Source of the DNA: Bacteroidota bacterium
Lineage (GTDB): Bacteria > Bacteroidota > Bacteroidia > JACCXN01
Assembly (NCBI GenBank): GCA_013696965.1
Contig: JACCXN010000004.1
Span: 28,709-92,708, forward strand
Reading direction: 5' to 3'
DNA: 64,000 nt
The notes beneath the pieces were generated by a model, which was not told where the DNA came from, made no database searches, and saw nothing but the letters and a program-made list of their open reading frames with translations. A program made the translations under genes and the position numbers. How positions within the stretch are numbered: position 1 is the first letter of the stretch; every line of letters begins with the position of its first letter. Positions 57,949 to 64,000 of the stretch are shown here, one piece after another.

Positions 57949-60159
57949 ATGAAATTATTCTATTCAATAATACTCACTTTTGTTTTCATAATTCCTGCTT
58001 ATACTCAAGGCGTACAAGGCATTGTTTATGAAAACAAAAACGGAAAAAACCTTCCTCTCCCGGGGGTAAATATTTTTTGGTTAAACACATATACAGGTAC
58101 CGTAAGCAATCCTGATGGCACTTTTGAAGTAAACAATCCAGAGCGTTTTCCGGCAAAATTAATCGTAAGTTTTGTCGGGTTTAAAACCGATACTGTTGTT
58201 GTGGATAATCCTACCAGAATTACTGTTATTATGAAAAACTCAGTTGATTTAAAAGTTGTAGAAATTTCCGAAAGAATACAATCTACAAGCATTTCTTCCA
58301 TGACATCAATTAATGTTGAAACAATTTCTTCGAAAGAGTTGCTCAAAGCGGCTTGTTGCAACCTTGCAGAAAGTTTTGAAACAAATGCTTCGGTGGATGT
58401 AAGTTATACAGATGCAGTTTCTGGAGCAAGGCAAATTCAAATGCTTGGTCTTGATGGCACTTATACTCAAATAATGACAGAAAACATTCCAGCCATCCGT
58501 GGACTAACTTCTTCATCTGGCCTTGGTTTTATCCCGGGAACATGGATTGAATCAATACAAGTAACAAAGGGTACAGGTTCTGTTATAAATGGATATGAGT
58601 CTTTAACCGGGGCAATCAATGTTGAATTTCAAAAACCTCTGGAAGCAGATCGGGTATTTGTTAATACATACGCAAACCACCGGGGCAGGTATGAATTAAA
58701 TGTACATTTAGCTCATAAATTAAATGATAATTGGTCTACTCTTTTATTCACTCATGGTAGCACAGTAAACCAACGATTAGACCAGGATAAAAATGGTTTT
58801 CTGGATACCCCTTTGCTAAAACAAGTTAATGTTTTTAATCGCTGGCAATATACAGGGAAAGAAAAAAAAGTTTTTGCACAATTTGGTGTAAAAGCTCTTG
58901 CAGAAGAAAGAACAGCAGGACAAGTGTTTTTTAACCCTAAAACAGATTATGGAACCCAAAATGCATATGGAATAGGAATAGAAAGCAGGCAATTCGAAGC
59001 TTTCTCAAAAACAGGACTCAATTCTCAAGCCCGGCCTTTTAGAAGCCTTGGTTTAATAAGTAATTTCAAACATTATAAACAGGAATCCTTTTTTGGATTA
59101 AGAAATTACTCTGGCGAACAAAACACCGTTTATCTTAACCTAATATACCAGGATTTCATATATACAACGGATCATAAAATCAAGACTGGGCTTTCCTTTT
59201 TATCTGATAATTATTCTGAATCATACAACGACAGTGCCTTTTCAAGACAGGAGCAAGTACCAGGGGTTTTTGCTGAATACAATTACGATATAGAAAACAA
59301 GTATTCAATTCTTGCTGGAATAAGAGGGGACTATCACAGTATGTATGGTGTTTTTCCAACTCCCCGGCTTCACATTAAGTACCATTTTATGCCTAAAACA
59401 TATTTCCGTTTATCCGCAGGGAGAGGATTCAGAGTTGCCAACATCTTTTCTGAAAACTCAGCAATAATGGCTAGTTCAAGAAGTATTCATGTAGGGGAAA
59501 ACTTGCTTCCCGAAATTGGATGGAGCTATGGGGCTTCCTTTACTCATCACTTCAGTATTGTAAAAAAAGCAATTACCTGGAATACTGATTTCTTTCGCAC
59601 TGATTTTATTAATCAAATTGTTGTTGATTACGACAGGAATATAAATCAAATACTTTTTTATAACCTTCAGGGTAAAAGTTATTCGAATAGTTTTCAAACA
59701 GAATTGATTATTGAGGCAATAGAAAACTTGGAGTTTAAAAGCGCATATAAATGGTATGACGTAAAAACAACTTACAATGAAGAATTACTTTCTAAGCCTT
59801 TGGTTTCAGGACATCGCGTACTATTAAATGCAACCTATTATTCCAAGTTTGACAAGTGGAAATTTGATGCTACAGCAAAATGGTACGGCAGTACCAGGAT
59901 TCCAGGAGAACACTCATCCAACACTGAATTCCATTTGCCGGAACGCTCTCAATCATACTGGATTTTCCTGGCCCAGATTACGCGAAGCTTTAAAAAAATG
60001 GATATTTATTTGGGAGGAGAAAACTTATCGAATTTTATGCAACATAATCCAATAATTGCCCCTCAAGATCCTTTCGGTCCAGACTTTGATGCTTCCCTTG
60101 TATGGGGACCATTAATGGGAAGGGTTATTTATGCAGGCATCAGGGTTAAGATAAAATAA
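57949..60159 (+). CDS. TonB-dependent outer-membrane receptor
   Basis: A 736-residue receptor. Signal peptide 1 to about 19, then a carboxypeptidase-like regulatory beta-sandwich (about 22-92: GVQGIVYENKNGKNLPLPGV, IVSFVGFKTDTVVV), a plug domain (about 115-225) with QIQMLGLDGTYTQIMTENIP and TGSVINGYESLTGAI, and a 22-stranded barrel to the aromatic C-terminus. No T9SS signal and no SusD partner. The ligand is likely a metal complex, inferred from the neighbouring HMA protein. Start ATG 57949, 86 bp after the small CC/PP protein gene. Confidence 0.92.
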   Translation: MKLFYSIILTFVFIIPAYTQGVQGIVYENKNGKNLPLPGVNIFWLNTYTGTVSNPDGTFEVNNPERFPAKLIVSFVGFKTDTVVVDNPTRITVIMKNSVDLKVVEISERIQSTSISSMTSINVETISSKELLKAACCNLAESFETNASVDVSYTDAVSGARQIQMLGLDGTYTQIMTENIPAIRGLTSSSGLGFIPGTWIESIQVTKGTGSVINGYESLTGAINVEFQKPLEADRVFVNTYANHRGRYELNVHLAHKLNDNWSTLLFTHGSTVNQRLDQDKNGFLDTPLLKQVNVFNRWQYTGKEKKVFAQFGVKALAEERTAGQVFFNPKTDYGTQNAYGIGIESRQFEAFSKTGLNSQARPFRSLGLISNFKHYKQESFFGLRNYSGEQNTVYLNLIYQDFIYTTDHKIKTGLSFLSDNYSESYNDSAFSRQEQVPGVFAEYNYDIENKYSILAGIRGDYHSMYGVFPTPRLHIKYHFMPKTYFRLSAGRGFRVANIFSENSAIMASSRSIHVGENLLPEIGWSYGASFTHHFSIVKKAITWNTDFFRTDFINQIVVDYDRNINQILFYNLQGKSYSNSFQTELIIEAIENLEFKSAYKWYDVKTTYNEELLSKPLVSGHRVLLNATYYSKFDKWKFDATAKWYGSTRIPGEHSSNTEFHLPERSQSYWIFLAQITRSFKKMDIYLGGENLSNFMQHNPIIAPQDPFGPDFDASLVWGPLMGRVIYAGIRVKIK

Positions 60160-60244
60160 GAAAAATAAGGGGAAATTTACCTTGATAATGAATCCAAAAT
60201 TAAAACAACTAGTATAAATTACACAAAATTAAAAACTTAAAACT

Positions 60245-60598
60245 ATGAAAACACCAAAAATTATAATTCTAGCAGCATTAATTGTTTTTTCATTTACCAC
60301 TAATGCTCAAGACAAGAAAAAAACAGAAGAAATAACCATTAAAACATCTGTAGTTTGTAACATGTGCAAATACAATGTTGAAAAAGCCATGGCTTATGAA
60401 AAAGGAGTTAAAAAATCAAACGTGAAAGTGCAGGAACAAACTGTTACAATTCTATTTGATCCCAAAAAAACATCTCCGGAAAAAATAAAAAAAGCAATTA
60501 CGATGGCTGGTTATGATGCAGATGAAATGTTAGCCGATCCGAAAGCCTACGAAAAATTAGATGCTTGTTGCAAAAAAGATAATGAAGTGCATGAATAA
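60245..60598 (+). CDS. Periplasmic heavy-metal-associated (HMA) domain protein
   Basis: A 117-residue exported protein. Signal peptide ends at TTNAQ (about 21). The HMA fold follows, with the metal-binding motif VCNMCKYNVEKAM (Cys38, Cys41), VKVQEQTVTILFDP and the helix SPEKIKKAITMAGYDAD. The C-terminal tail adds DACCKKD (Cys107, Cys108). CxxC HMA domains bind soft metals such as copper; here it probably acts as a periplasmic metal carrier linked to the TonB-dependent receptor 85 bp upstream. Confidence 0.88.
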   Translation: MKTPKIIILAALIVFSFTTNAQDKKKTEEITIKTSVVCNMCKYNVEKAMAYEKGVKKSNVKVQEQTVTILFDPKKTSPEKIKKAITMAGYDADEMLADPKAYEKLDACCKKDNEVHE

Positions 60599-60620
60599 TT
60601 GAACCTAATCCTGAAATTTA

Positions 60621-60653
60621 AAAAGGAACCATTAAAATAGTGTAGTTCCTTTT
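60621..60653 (+). terminator. Rho-independent terminator after the HMA gene
   Basis: AAAAGGAAC (60621-60629) pairs perfectly with GTTCCTTTT (60645-60653) across a 15-nt loop; the TTTT ends the stem, 23 bp after the stop codon. The inner loop GTGTA is related to the split hairpin at 61001-61236. Confidence 0.65.
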
Positions 60654-61000
60654 CAATTGGTATTGAGAAAAATTATCTTTTGATTCTTATAAATAAAGTA
60701 TGTGTTTCAAACCTTCAATATCTTGTTTTTCCTTAACAATACAACTGATTTACCAAGTTTTACCATTTTTCAAGCAGACTATTACAATACTTGTAAATGG
60801 TAAAGGGTTTAAATTTATAGCGAGGATAAGAATAAAAGCACCAAATATGGAAGAAATATTTTTTGCATTACCACAACACGAAGAATCTTGAAACTCCTTA
60901 TTAACTTTTAAATTTATGCTGCTAATAAAGCATCACATCAATATTTTAGTCAAAAATTCAATCAAAATAAATGAAATTAAATTCAATTAAACATTAAATA
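60654..61000. other. Intergenic, no convincing gene
   Basis: About 350 bp with AT-rich DNA. A 63-codon frame (60700-60891) lacks any recognisable domain or neighbour support and is not called. The next features are the split terminator and palindrome at 61001-61236. Confidence 0.4.
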
Positions 61001-61236
61001 AAAAAGGAGCTACACTATATTAGGCCACTGAAAAAGCTAACCCCGAAGGGGGTGACAGGATTACAGAAAATAACAACAATTAAAACCAAAACCCCGAAGG
61101 GGTGTTATAAAAATAAACAATCAATAATTTCACCCCTCCGGGGTTGAACTGGAATTAAAAATATTAATCTATAATTGTATCATCCCTTCGGGATTAGCTT
61201 TTTCAGTGGCCTCACACTATGCAGTTCCCATTTTTG
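61001..61236 (-). terminator. Terminator hairpin split by an inserted palindrome
   Basis: The left arm AAAAAGGAGCTACACTAT (61001-61018) and right arm GCAGTTCCCATTTTT (61221-61235) would pair (GGAGCT with AGTTCC, one G-T pair) if the DNA between were removed. On the minus strand the stem would end in CTCCTTTTT, a proper terminator for the adhesin gene that ends at 61250. The arms are now about 200 bp apart, separated by the nested palindrome, with ACACTAT on both sides of it. Confidence 0.45.
61019..61213. mobile_element. Nested palindromic MITE-like element
   Basis: Perfect 19-bp terminal inverted repeats, AGGCCACTGAAAAAGCTAA (61022-61040) and its complement (61194-61212). Immediately inside each lies a CCCGAAGGG-type mini-hairpin, and two further ones (AACCCCGAAGGGGTG at 61090-61104 and CACCCCTCCGGGGTT at 61131-61145, 14 of 15 matching) are nested inside. 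ACACTAT flanks the element (61012-61018 and 61214-61220) as a possible target duplication. It encodes no protein. The terminal sequence resembles transposon ends, so a non-autonomous element is likely. Confidence 0.65.
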
Positions 61237-61249
61237 TAAGTAAAAATCT

Positions 61250-64000
61250 TTATCGAATAAGAGTTACTGTTCCGGTATGTTCATAAGGCTTACCATCTAG
61301 CCCTTCTGCTTTTATCATTACAAAATAAGCTCCATCTGCAGTCTCTTTTCCAGATACTTTTCCGTCCCAGCCAACATTATAGTCATCAGAAACAAATACT
61401 AATTTTCCCCACCTATTGTAAATTGAACAGCTGTAACTCTTTAAGCCTCTGCTTTTTACTTTAAACATGTCATTTTTACCATCTCCATTCGGAGAAAATA
61501 CGTTAGGGATTTCTAAAAATGAATCACTTTCAACTAATATGCTTATGCTAAAAGTATCCGGACAATTTGCAAGACTACTGTAGGCTATAAGTATTACCTC
61601 ATAGCTTCCACCTTCTGTATAGGTATAACTTGTGTCTTTTTGAGTTGAACTTATTCCTGTTCCAAAATGCCAGATATAATTATTTGCAAAAAAAGATTGA
61701 TTTAAAAAGTTTACATTATGTGGAGTAATTCCAGTTAATGGAGTAGCAGTAAACAAAGCATCTGCATAATCAATTGTCGCTGTTGTTTGTGAGGCGGCAC
61801 TTTCACAACCATTTACAATAACCGAAAGATAATAACTCCCTACATTCTGAGCGCTTAAATTGTTTATTAATGGATTTTGCTGGCTGGATGTAAAACCATT
61901 TGGCCCTGTCCAACTATAGGTTGCATTTGTAATAGTTTCTGCATTAAGTTGTAGACTAGTTCCCGCGCATTGTGGATTATTAGCTTGAACTACTGGAGCA
62001 GCTGAAGGAGGATTAATAACGACATTAGTGGTGGCAGGAGAGCTGGTACAACCGTTTATTGTTAAGGTTGCTGAATAGATCCCTGCATGGCCAAACAAAT
62101 AAACATTGTTTATTTGTGGGTCATTTCCTGGTATTGGAGCACCTGATGGATTTGTCCAGTTAACAGTTCCATTAGTTACTCCCGATATTAAATTTAAAGT
62201 TCCTCCCGAACAAATTGGTGAGTTAGATGTTGGACTTGGAGGCAATGGTAAGGCTTGAATAGTAACTATTACAGGTTCAATGTCTGTACAACCAGATGCT
62301 GAAGATTGTATATAATAAGTGCCACTTACACTTACAGCATTTGGGGATGTTAAGCTTGTTGTTGCTCCAGCATCCGTCCAATAAGTTAAAGTTCCTGAGC
62401 CTGTGCTTCCTGAAGTTGCTGATGCTGCAGTTATATCTACCGTTGCTGGGGAACAAACTGCCGCAGGATTTGTAATTGAAAGTACTGGCGTGGTATTAAT
62501 CACAACAGTAACAGGTTCAATGTCCGTACAACCAGATGAAGAAGATTGTATATAATAAGTGCCACTTGCACTAACTGCACTTGGGGATGTTAAGCTTGTT
62601 GTTGCACCAGCATCTGTCCAATAGGTTAATGTTCCTCCACCTGCGCTGCCAGCCGTTACTGAAGCATTAGTTAAATCAATAGTAGATGGTGAACATACAG
62701 CAAGTGGATTTGTAATTGAAAGTACTGGTGTGGTATTAATGATAACAGTAACAGGTTCAATGTCTGTACAACCTGATGCTGAAGATTGTATATAATAAGT
62801 GCCGCTTGCACTTACAGCATTTGGGGATGTTAAGCTTGTGGTTGCTCCAGCATCTGTCCAATAAGTTAATGTTCCTGCGCCTGTACTTCCTGAAGTTACT
62901 GTTGTTGCAGTTATATCTACCGTTGCTGGAGAACAAACTGCCGGAGGATTTGTAATTGAAAGTACTGGTGTGGTATTAATCACAACAGTAACAGGTTCAA
63001 TGTCAGTACAACCTGATGCTGAAGATTGTATATAATAAGTGCCACTTACACTTACAGCATTTGGGGATGTTAAGCTTGTTGTTGCTCCAGCATCTGTCCA
63101 ATAAGTTAAGGCTCCTACGCCTGTACTTCCTGAAGTTACTGATGCTGCAGTTATATCTACCGTTGCTGGAGAACAAACTGCCGGAGGATTTGTAATTGAA
63201 AGTACAGGGGATGGATTAATAGTAACAGTAACAGGTTGAATGTCTGAACAACTTGATACTGAAGATTGTATATAATAGGTACCGCTTGCACTAACCGCAC
63301 CGGGTGATGTTAAAACTGTTGTTGCACTGGAATTTGTCCAATAGCTTAGTGTTCCTCCACCTGTGCTGCCAGCCGTTACTGAAGAGGTAGTCAAATCAAC
63401 AGTAGAGGGTGAACATACAGCAAGTGGATTTGTAATTGAAAGTACAGGTGTGGTATTAATGATAACAGTAACTGGTTCAATGTCTGTACAACCAGATGCT
63501 GAAGATTGTATATAATAAGTGCCGCTTGCACTTACAGCATTTGGGGATGTTAAGCTTGTGGTTGCACCAGCATTTGTCCAATAAGTTAAGGTTCCTGCGC
63601 CTGTACTTCCTGAAGTTACTGATGCTGCAGTTATATCTACAGTTGCTGGTGAACAAACTCCCGGAGGATTTGTAATTGAAAGTACAGGGGATGGGTTAAT
63701 AGTAACAGTAACTGGTTCAATGTCTGTACAACCAGATGCTGAAGATTGTATATAATAAGTGCCGCTTGCACTTACAGCATTTGCGGATGTTAAACTTGTA
63801 GTTGCACCAGCATCTGTCCAATAAGTTAAGGTTCCTGCGCCTGTGCTTCCTGAAGTTACTGAAGCATTAGTTAAATCAACAGTAGATGGTGAACATACAG
63901 CAAGTGGATTTGTAATTGAAAGTACTGGTGTGGTATTAATGATAACAGTAACTGGTTCAATGTCAGTACAACCAGATGCTGAAGATTGTATATAATAAGT
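61250..64000 (-). CDS. Large repetitive secreted protein with T9SS type B sorting domain (partial)
   Basis: The 3' part (916 codons) of a bigger gene; its reading frame is open to the right edge and the 5' end lies outside. From the N-terminal side, it holds 80-residue tandem repeats (64000-62240; typical words SITNPPAVCSPATVDITA, TYWTDAGATTSLTSP, SGTYYIQSSASGCTDIEPVT), two Ig-like domains (about 62240-61770), a PKD-like domain (about 61760-61520, IWHFGTG) and a C-terminal gliding-associated sorting domain (PNVFSPNGDGKNDMF, IYNRWGKLVF, GWDGK). It would be exported by T9SS and shown on the surface as an adhesin. The ATG-like start inside the window is an internal TTG, not a true start. Confidence 0.9.
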   Translation of the reverse strand, partial: TYYIQSSASGCTDIEPVTVIINTTPVLSITNPLAVCSPSTVDLTNASVTSGSTGAGTLTYWTDAGATTSLTSANAVSASGTYYIQSSASGCTDIEPVTVTINPSPVLSITNPPGVCSPATVDITAASVTSGSTGAGTLTYWTNAGATTSLTSPNAVSASGTYYIQSSASGCTDIEPVTVIINTTPVLSITNPLAVCSPSTVDLTTSSVTAGSTGGGTLSYWTNSSATTVLTSPGAVSASGTYYIQSSVSSCSDIQPVTVTINPSPVLSITNPPAVCSPATVDITAASVTSGSTGVGALTYWTDAGATTSLTSPNAVSVSGTYYIQSSASGCTDIEPVTVVINTTPVLSITNPPAVCSPATVDITATTVTSGSTGAGTLTYWTDAGATTSLTSPNAVSASGTYYIQSSASGCTDIEPVTVIINTTPVLSITNPLAVCSPSTIDLTNASVTAGSAGGGTLTYWTDAGATTSLTSPSAVSASGTYYIQSSSSGCTDIEPVTVVINTTPVLSITNPAAVCSPATVDITAASATSGSTGSGTLTYWTDAGATTSLTSPNAVSVSGTYYIQSSASGCTDIEPVIVTIQALPLPPSPTSNSPICSGGTLNLISGVTNGTVNWTNPSGAPIPGNDPQINNVYLFGHAGIYSATLTINGCTSSPATTNVVINPPSAAPVVQANNPQCAGTSLQLNAETITNATYSWTGPNGFTSSQQNPLINNLSAQNVGSYYLSVIVNGCESAASQTTATIDYADALFTATPLTGITPHNVNFLNQSFFANNYIWHFGTGISSTQKDTSYTYTEGGSYEVILIAYSSLANCPDTFSISILVESDSFLEIPNVFSPNGDGKNDMFKVKSRGLKSYSCSIYNRWGKLVFVSDDYNVGWDGKVSGKETADGAYFVMIKAEGLDGKPYEHTGTVTLIR
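62281..64000 (-). repeat. 240-bp tandem coding repeats (at least seven)
   Basis: Units of exactly 240 bp (80 codons); the marker TGTCNGTACAACC or its close variant recurs at 62281, 62521, 62761, 63001, 63241, 63481, 63721 and 63961. Similarity is high at the DNA level, including silent positions, so the array has been homogenised recently. It continues past the window. Confidence 0.95.

Follow-up and report, generated by a model that had tools for sequence, protein, structure and literature searches.

The 64,000-nucleotide stretch of DNA analysed here (the window) holds, between two convergent genes, a short element flanked by the two arms of a split terminator (Table 1). The element contains four C-run/G-run hairpins and is bounded by perfect 19-bp inverted repeats, as the initial annotation had reported. 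The outer part of the left repeat is common to an insertion sequence (IS) at G000:C9:194416, and the outermost left base of the window copy has changed from G to T (TAGGCC). The adhesin-like gene is the one that the split terminator once served. The minus strand of the region (61237-60998) folds at -121 kcal/mol, compared to -54 ± 4.8 kcal/mol for shuffled sequences (z = -14), which is far beyond chance; an Rfam search of the window matched no family.

Table 1. Features of the element, its flanks and its neighbours in the window.
Feature	Position	Strand	Remarks
HMA-domain protein gene	60245..60598	+	convergent neighbour; own hairpin terminator at 60621-60653
Split-terminator arm AAAAAGGAGCT	61001..61011	-	3' arm and T-run for the minus-strand adhesin gene
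Target-site duplication, left copy ACACTATAT	61012..61020	+	last two bases changed
MITE, 193 bp	61021..61213	no strand	IS1182-type ends GAGGCCACTGAAAAAG; lacks ORFs ≥ 60 aa
Left terminal inverted repeat AGGCCACTGAAAAAGCTAA	61022..61040	+	perfect 19-bp match to right end
Terminator-like hairpin ACCCCCTTCGGGGT, then TAGCTTTTTC from the inverted repeat	61040..61053	-	within element; outward; consensus scan
Terminator-like hairpin ACCCCTTCGGGGT, then TTTGGTTTTA	61091..61103	-	within element; consensus scan
Terminator-like hairpin ATCCCTTCGGGAT, then TAGCTTTTTC	61182..61194	+	within element; outward; consensus scan
Right terminal inverted repeat	61194..61212	-	perfect 19-bp match to left end
Target-site duplication, right copy ACACTATGC	61214..61222	+	read from sequence
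Split-terminator other arm AGTTCCCATTTTT	61223..61235	-	adjoins adhesin stop codon
Adhesin-like gene	61250..64000	-	CHU_C and T9SS type B sorting domain; continues past the edge of the window

The element is a MITE: it is short, lacks a transposase gene, has ends that match those of an IS, and occurs as dispersed copies with target duplications. About 11 further copies, full or partial, were found in the same 3.86-Mb draft genome at 91-100% identity, and five other copies are full or near full length (94-97% identity to the window copy). The autonomous IS (G000:C9:194416-196160) is 1745 bp long, with 16-bp ends GAGGCCACTGAAAAAG and a single intact transposase ORF of 510 aa. IS1182 elements carry one transposase gene between terminal inverted repeats and measure about 1.3-1.95 kb, a layout into which this IS fits in ORF number, ends and size. 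The transposase contains the Pfam domains DDE_Tnp_1_6 and DUF772 and matches the NCBIfam IS1182 equivalog model NF033551 (E = 1.4e-115; 387 bits, cut-off 270); the mobilising IS thus belongs to the IS1182 family. On the right, the outer 16 bp of the MITE match those of the IS exactly; on the left they differ by one change. Because the two sequences diverge past these 16 bp, we infer mobilisation of the MITE in trans by the IS1182-family transposase of the same genome from their common ends and from the target rule, described below, that both follow. The exact ends, searched for in 60 relatives, were present in the source genome only. Ends identical to those of the IS were also found on the tips of contigs C6, C30, C46, C69 and C89 and are, by their sequence, further IS copies that broke the assembly.

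The initial annotation had proposed that the flanking arms form a terminator stem once the insert is removed, and an intact version of the site bears this out. Flank searches of two other genomes of the family for an empty site in relatives, as had been suggested, returned none; the right-flank query instead matched contig C81 of the source genome, which carries a paralogue 87% identical to the adhesin 3' end. The region downstream of this paralogue aligns to both sides of the element, over 58 bp at 91% on the left, a stretch that includes the arm at 61001..61011, and at 88% on the right. Its terminator reads AAAAAAGGAGCCGCACTATGCAGCTCCCATTTTT uninterrupted, with CACTATGC present once, and on folding gives a clean terminator hairpin whose dyad is at CTA. 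Judged from these alignments, the C81 paralogue is an empty site and the window element is an insertion into the terminator; loss of an element from C81 by precise excision would be possible in principle, and insertion is the simpler reading. Since the C81 site is intact and single-copy, the window duplication is best read as the 9 bp ACACTATGC, centred on the dyad. The left copy ACACTATAT is identical at 7 of 9 bases, two of its bases having changed since. The duplication described in the initial annotation is thus real, with its length revised from 7 bp (ACACTAT) to 9 bp and that of the element set at 193 bp. The paralogue itself (G000:C81:4263-4749, L215) points to a segmental duplication of the gene end.

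A second case comes from Chryseobacterium, where the terminator entered by insertion L058, the one site searched, is uninterrupted in related genomes. By an assignment that matched BLAST rows to loci by file order, L176 and L178 carry the L058 stem-loop letter for letter, with the duplicated 8 bp in one copy, and L177 carries a one-base variant.

To describe where the elements land, we assembled 49 copies of IS and MITEs with both flanks. These came from the source genome, from transposase relatives in Bacteroidota, Lysinibacillus and Oscillospiraceae, from independent MITEs of Flavobacterium salmonis and F. urumqiense, and from plasmid copies of Bacteroides, Priestia and Enterococcus. Transposase relatives in other genomes numbered 55, most of them with ends close to GAGG(C/G/T)CACTGAAAAA. 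A duplication of 7-10 bp was present in 37 of the 49 copies (21 of 8 bp, 14 of 9 bp, one of 7 bp and one of 10 bp), the window copy having been placed among the 37 by hand; its stem score of 8.3 lies below the strong-stem threshold of 9. For scoring, the flanks were joined with one copy of the duplication, and the best stem was sought within 12 bp. A dyad lay within 2 bp of the duplication centre in 33/37 copies, compared to 20% of 5000 intergenic control positions, and within 1 bp in 29/37, compared to 11%. A strong stem lay within 1 bp of the centre in 28/37 copies and in 1.4% of the 5000 intergenic positions. Given a strong hairpin within 12 bp, the dyad fell within 1 bp in 28/32 copies and in 11% of such intergenic controls. 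The corresponding binomial P value assumes independence and is to be taken as very small only. These data show that the element has a target rule, by which insertion is centred on hairpin dyads across many genomes; the independent MITEs of F. salmonis follow the same centring rule.

Most of the target hairpins are bordered at the base of the stem by A-runs and T-runs and, by sequence, look like intrinsic terminators. The expectation that other copies would also sit in terminators was therefore borne out, with duplications mostly of 7-10 bp in place of a uniform 7 bp, and the precise centring favours targeting of terminator hairpins over mere tolerance there, the two options that the initial annotation had left side by side. 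The length of the duplication does not follow that of the loop, since loops vary from 3 to 13 nt and duplications remain constant at 8-9 bp; a parity rule relating the two was likewise rejected, as the copies do not obey it. Two IS copies in different species of Chryseobacterium (L062 and L064) occupy closely similar terminators, ACCGGTTTTTAAACCGG, at positions offset by a single base; judging from the two sequences, one target seems to have been used independently.

The exceptions are of two kinds. Twelve of the 49 two-ended copies have no duplication; one of these is L052, whose right flank, CTTTATAAAGTGAGGTTT, fits together with the left flank of L084 on another contig of the same strain, so that the flanks were either exchanged between copies by recombination or misjoined. 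Four of the 37 copies with a duplication (L068, L073, C94 and C19) have no central hairpin. Distant IS1182 copies with unclear ends or no obvious terminator flank were left unscored (L123, L124, L195, L197, L200, L201 and L206-L210). L198 has a different hairpin on each side and no direct repeat.

The IS1182 family and its habit of targeting hairpins are already known, and our searches found literature on this habit in PMC4923244 and PMC5678879 only. Palindrome targeting by some members (Siguier et al. 2015, as cited in PMC5678879) is a trait shared by the present clade, in which 33/37 insertions lie within 2 bp of a hairpin dyad. In staphylococci, IS1272 and TnSha1 reportedly enter hairpins, several of which are terminators confirmed by RNA-seq, and delete part or all of the stem-loop without duplication (PMC4923244, PMC5678879). 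Wan et al. (2017) described three routes by which a stem-loop may be attacked: at the 3' feet, with its loss; at the 5' feet, with duplication of the whole stem-loop; and at the loop, with duplication of the loop. They proposed the 3'-feet route for IS1272, whereas loop duplication (pathway c) was hypothetical only (PMC5678879). The present clade resembles IS1272 in its family, its hairpin targets (terminators included), the lack of a sequence consensus and its 16-bp ends. Unlike IS1272, it keeps both arms and duplicates the 7-10 bp at the tip; stem-loop replacement of the IS1272 type was not seen in this clade, in which 37/49 copies have duplications, arms are intact and empty sites are single-copy. 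By these sequence features, the present clade fits the loop-duplication route, and this branch of the published model would thereby gain real examples. The literature searched contained no account of symmetric insertion at the tip with a duplication of 8-9 bp, of MITEs using this mode, or of the difference between clades; individual elements may already be named.

A further contrast is provided by ISBspe1-like IS1182 elements (ends CAGACTG/CAGGCTG), which share with the present clade the family, the terminator-hairpin target and a direct duplication. They duplicate the whole stem-loop, however, whereas the present clade duplicates the tip. In this sister clade, the plasmid copies L196, L199, L202, L203, L204 and L205, a small sample of six distant matches, have perfect direct repeats of 18-24 bp that comprise whole terminator stem-loops, a pattern that appears to match the 5'-feet route of Wan et al. 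(2017). Identity to the present transposase is about 22-25% in the plasmid copies examined. We lean slightly towards a general rule in which IS1182 transposases recognise the hairpin itself and each clade strikes it at a fixed place: the tip in the present clade (8-9 bp duplication), the foot in the CAGACTG clade, and with loss of the stem-loop in IS1272. If this is true, one structural rule explains the variable duplication length of the family, and intrinsic terminators are its natural habitat.

We know of no link between IS1182 ends and the SPRITE, RUP and BOX repeats of Streptococcus pneumoniae. Those repeats are likewise short and intergenic, and SPRITE carries terminator-like sequence; placement at a terminator dyad is not reported in the passages of the review that deal with them (PMC10969869). 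IS elements that enter REP palindromes, as far as the relevant part of PMC1525189 describes them, also have a palindromic target. Theirs is the repeated REP sequence, whereas the targets of the present clade share hairpin form and not sequence.

Taken together, the best explanation, and one that we consider highly probable, is a MITE mobilised in trans that inserts symmetrically about the dyad of a hairpin tip, with takeover of the terminator probable. The DDE transposase of the IS1182-family element in the same genome would act on the non-autonomous MITE, joining its ends at two points 8-9 bp apart and symmetric about the hairpin dyad; repair would then duplicate the tip on both sides and leave one terminator arm in each flank. 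The transposase may recognise an extruded hairpin or cruciform, and terminators would be the main targets probably because they are the commonest strong hairpins between genes.

Other readings of the locus were weighed against this one. That the 235 bp from arm to arm form a single ancient terminator or attenuator, long and complex, without any insertion, might be suggested by the folding of the whole region as a single long hairpin. However, the paralogous locus lacks exactly the insert, the insert recurs at other genomic sites amid unrelated flanks, and the full 235 bp are not conserved together, so that this reading is extremely improbable. Almost every copy lies in an intergenic region, where terminators are frequent, as would be expected if insertion were near-random and only those copies survived that had entered terminators, where they do no coding harm. 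Harmlessness would not yield single-base precision, however, and with 28/32 dyads centred against 11% of controls, selection acting on random insertions does not account for the placement; we regard this reading as very unlikely.

It is possible, although we doubt it, that the transposase reads a correlate of terminators, such as a dyad-symmetric duplex, phased A-tract/T-tract flanks or the terminating RNA polymerase. A-runs and T-runs flank most targets, and structure and sequence symmetry are inseparable by sequence alone. On the other hand, the target of L075 is a strong hairpin without A- or T-runs that was still entered at its dyad, the targets of IS1272 have no common sequence (PMC5678879), and the duplication of the sister clade spans the stem-loop. 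Dyad-symmetric insertion into hairpin tips thus remains the preferred reading, and the target features point to a transposase that picks hairpins and not a DNA sequence. The observation made in the initial annotation is confirmed and its interpretation supported, with the mechanism refined. This provides a quantitative landing rule for this branch of IS1182 and its MITEs, whose target would be a shape found in every bacterial genome, allowing harmless spread across phyla (here Bacteroidota and Bacillota).

Insertion need not leave the adhesin gene without a stop signal. A consensus scan of 60100-61800 found three terminator-like sites, all inside the element, compared to 0.6 in shuffled sequences; the scan is not exhaustive, as it missed the apparent terminator at 60621-60653. 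Two of the three hairpins draw their T-run from the inverted repeat (CTTTTT), one pointing outward in each direction, and the IS also has a hairpin and T-run near each end. Since the element carries outward hairpins with T-runs, termination was probably taken over and not lost: these hairpins would keep termination going, and the element probably replaces the stop signal that it splits. The earlier suggestion that its own hairpins had replaced the terminator is therefore plausible. This suggests that intrinsic terminators are repeatedly remade by mobile DNA that carries its own stop signals. The resemblance of the parental hairpin to the intact terminator at 60621-60653, also noted earlier, is real and plays no part in the explanation; the HMA terminator (60633-60658) and the adhesin terminator arm (60997-61022, inverted) are 85% identical over 26 bp.

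Several other arrangements of the family were observed in the source genome. A second kind of MITE (G000:C20:109434-109638; L041:435-640) consists of both IS ends, the transposase gene between them having been deleted, and also lies in a terminator. Two different family elements occur as a tandem pair at G000:C19:8050-8363 and G000:C59:7240-7556 (L011, L015), with the same 9-bp spacer CTTTTTGGG at both sites and duplications outside; the two seem to have been mobilised together as a single unit. A further IS, with ends CAATGTCATTAAGTTAAGGA, has apparently entered the CCCTTCGGG hairpin of a MITE copy and thereby broken the assembly (G000:C38:65867-66170 and C5:1-212; L034, L010). Hairpins like those of the MITE core, CATCCCTTCGGGAT and CACCCCTTCGGGGT, recur at G000:C41:200-460 (L035, a cluster) and C72:397-420 (L037), and on this basis the MITE core may include a captured palindromic repeat of separate origin.
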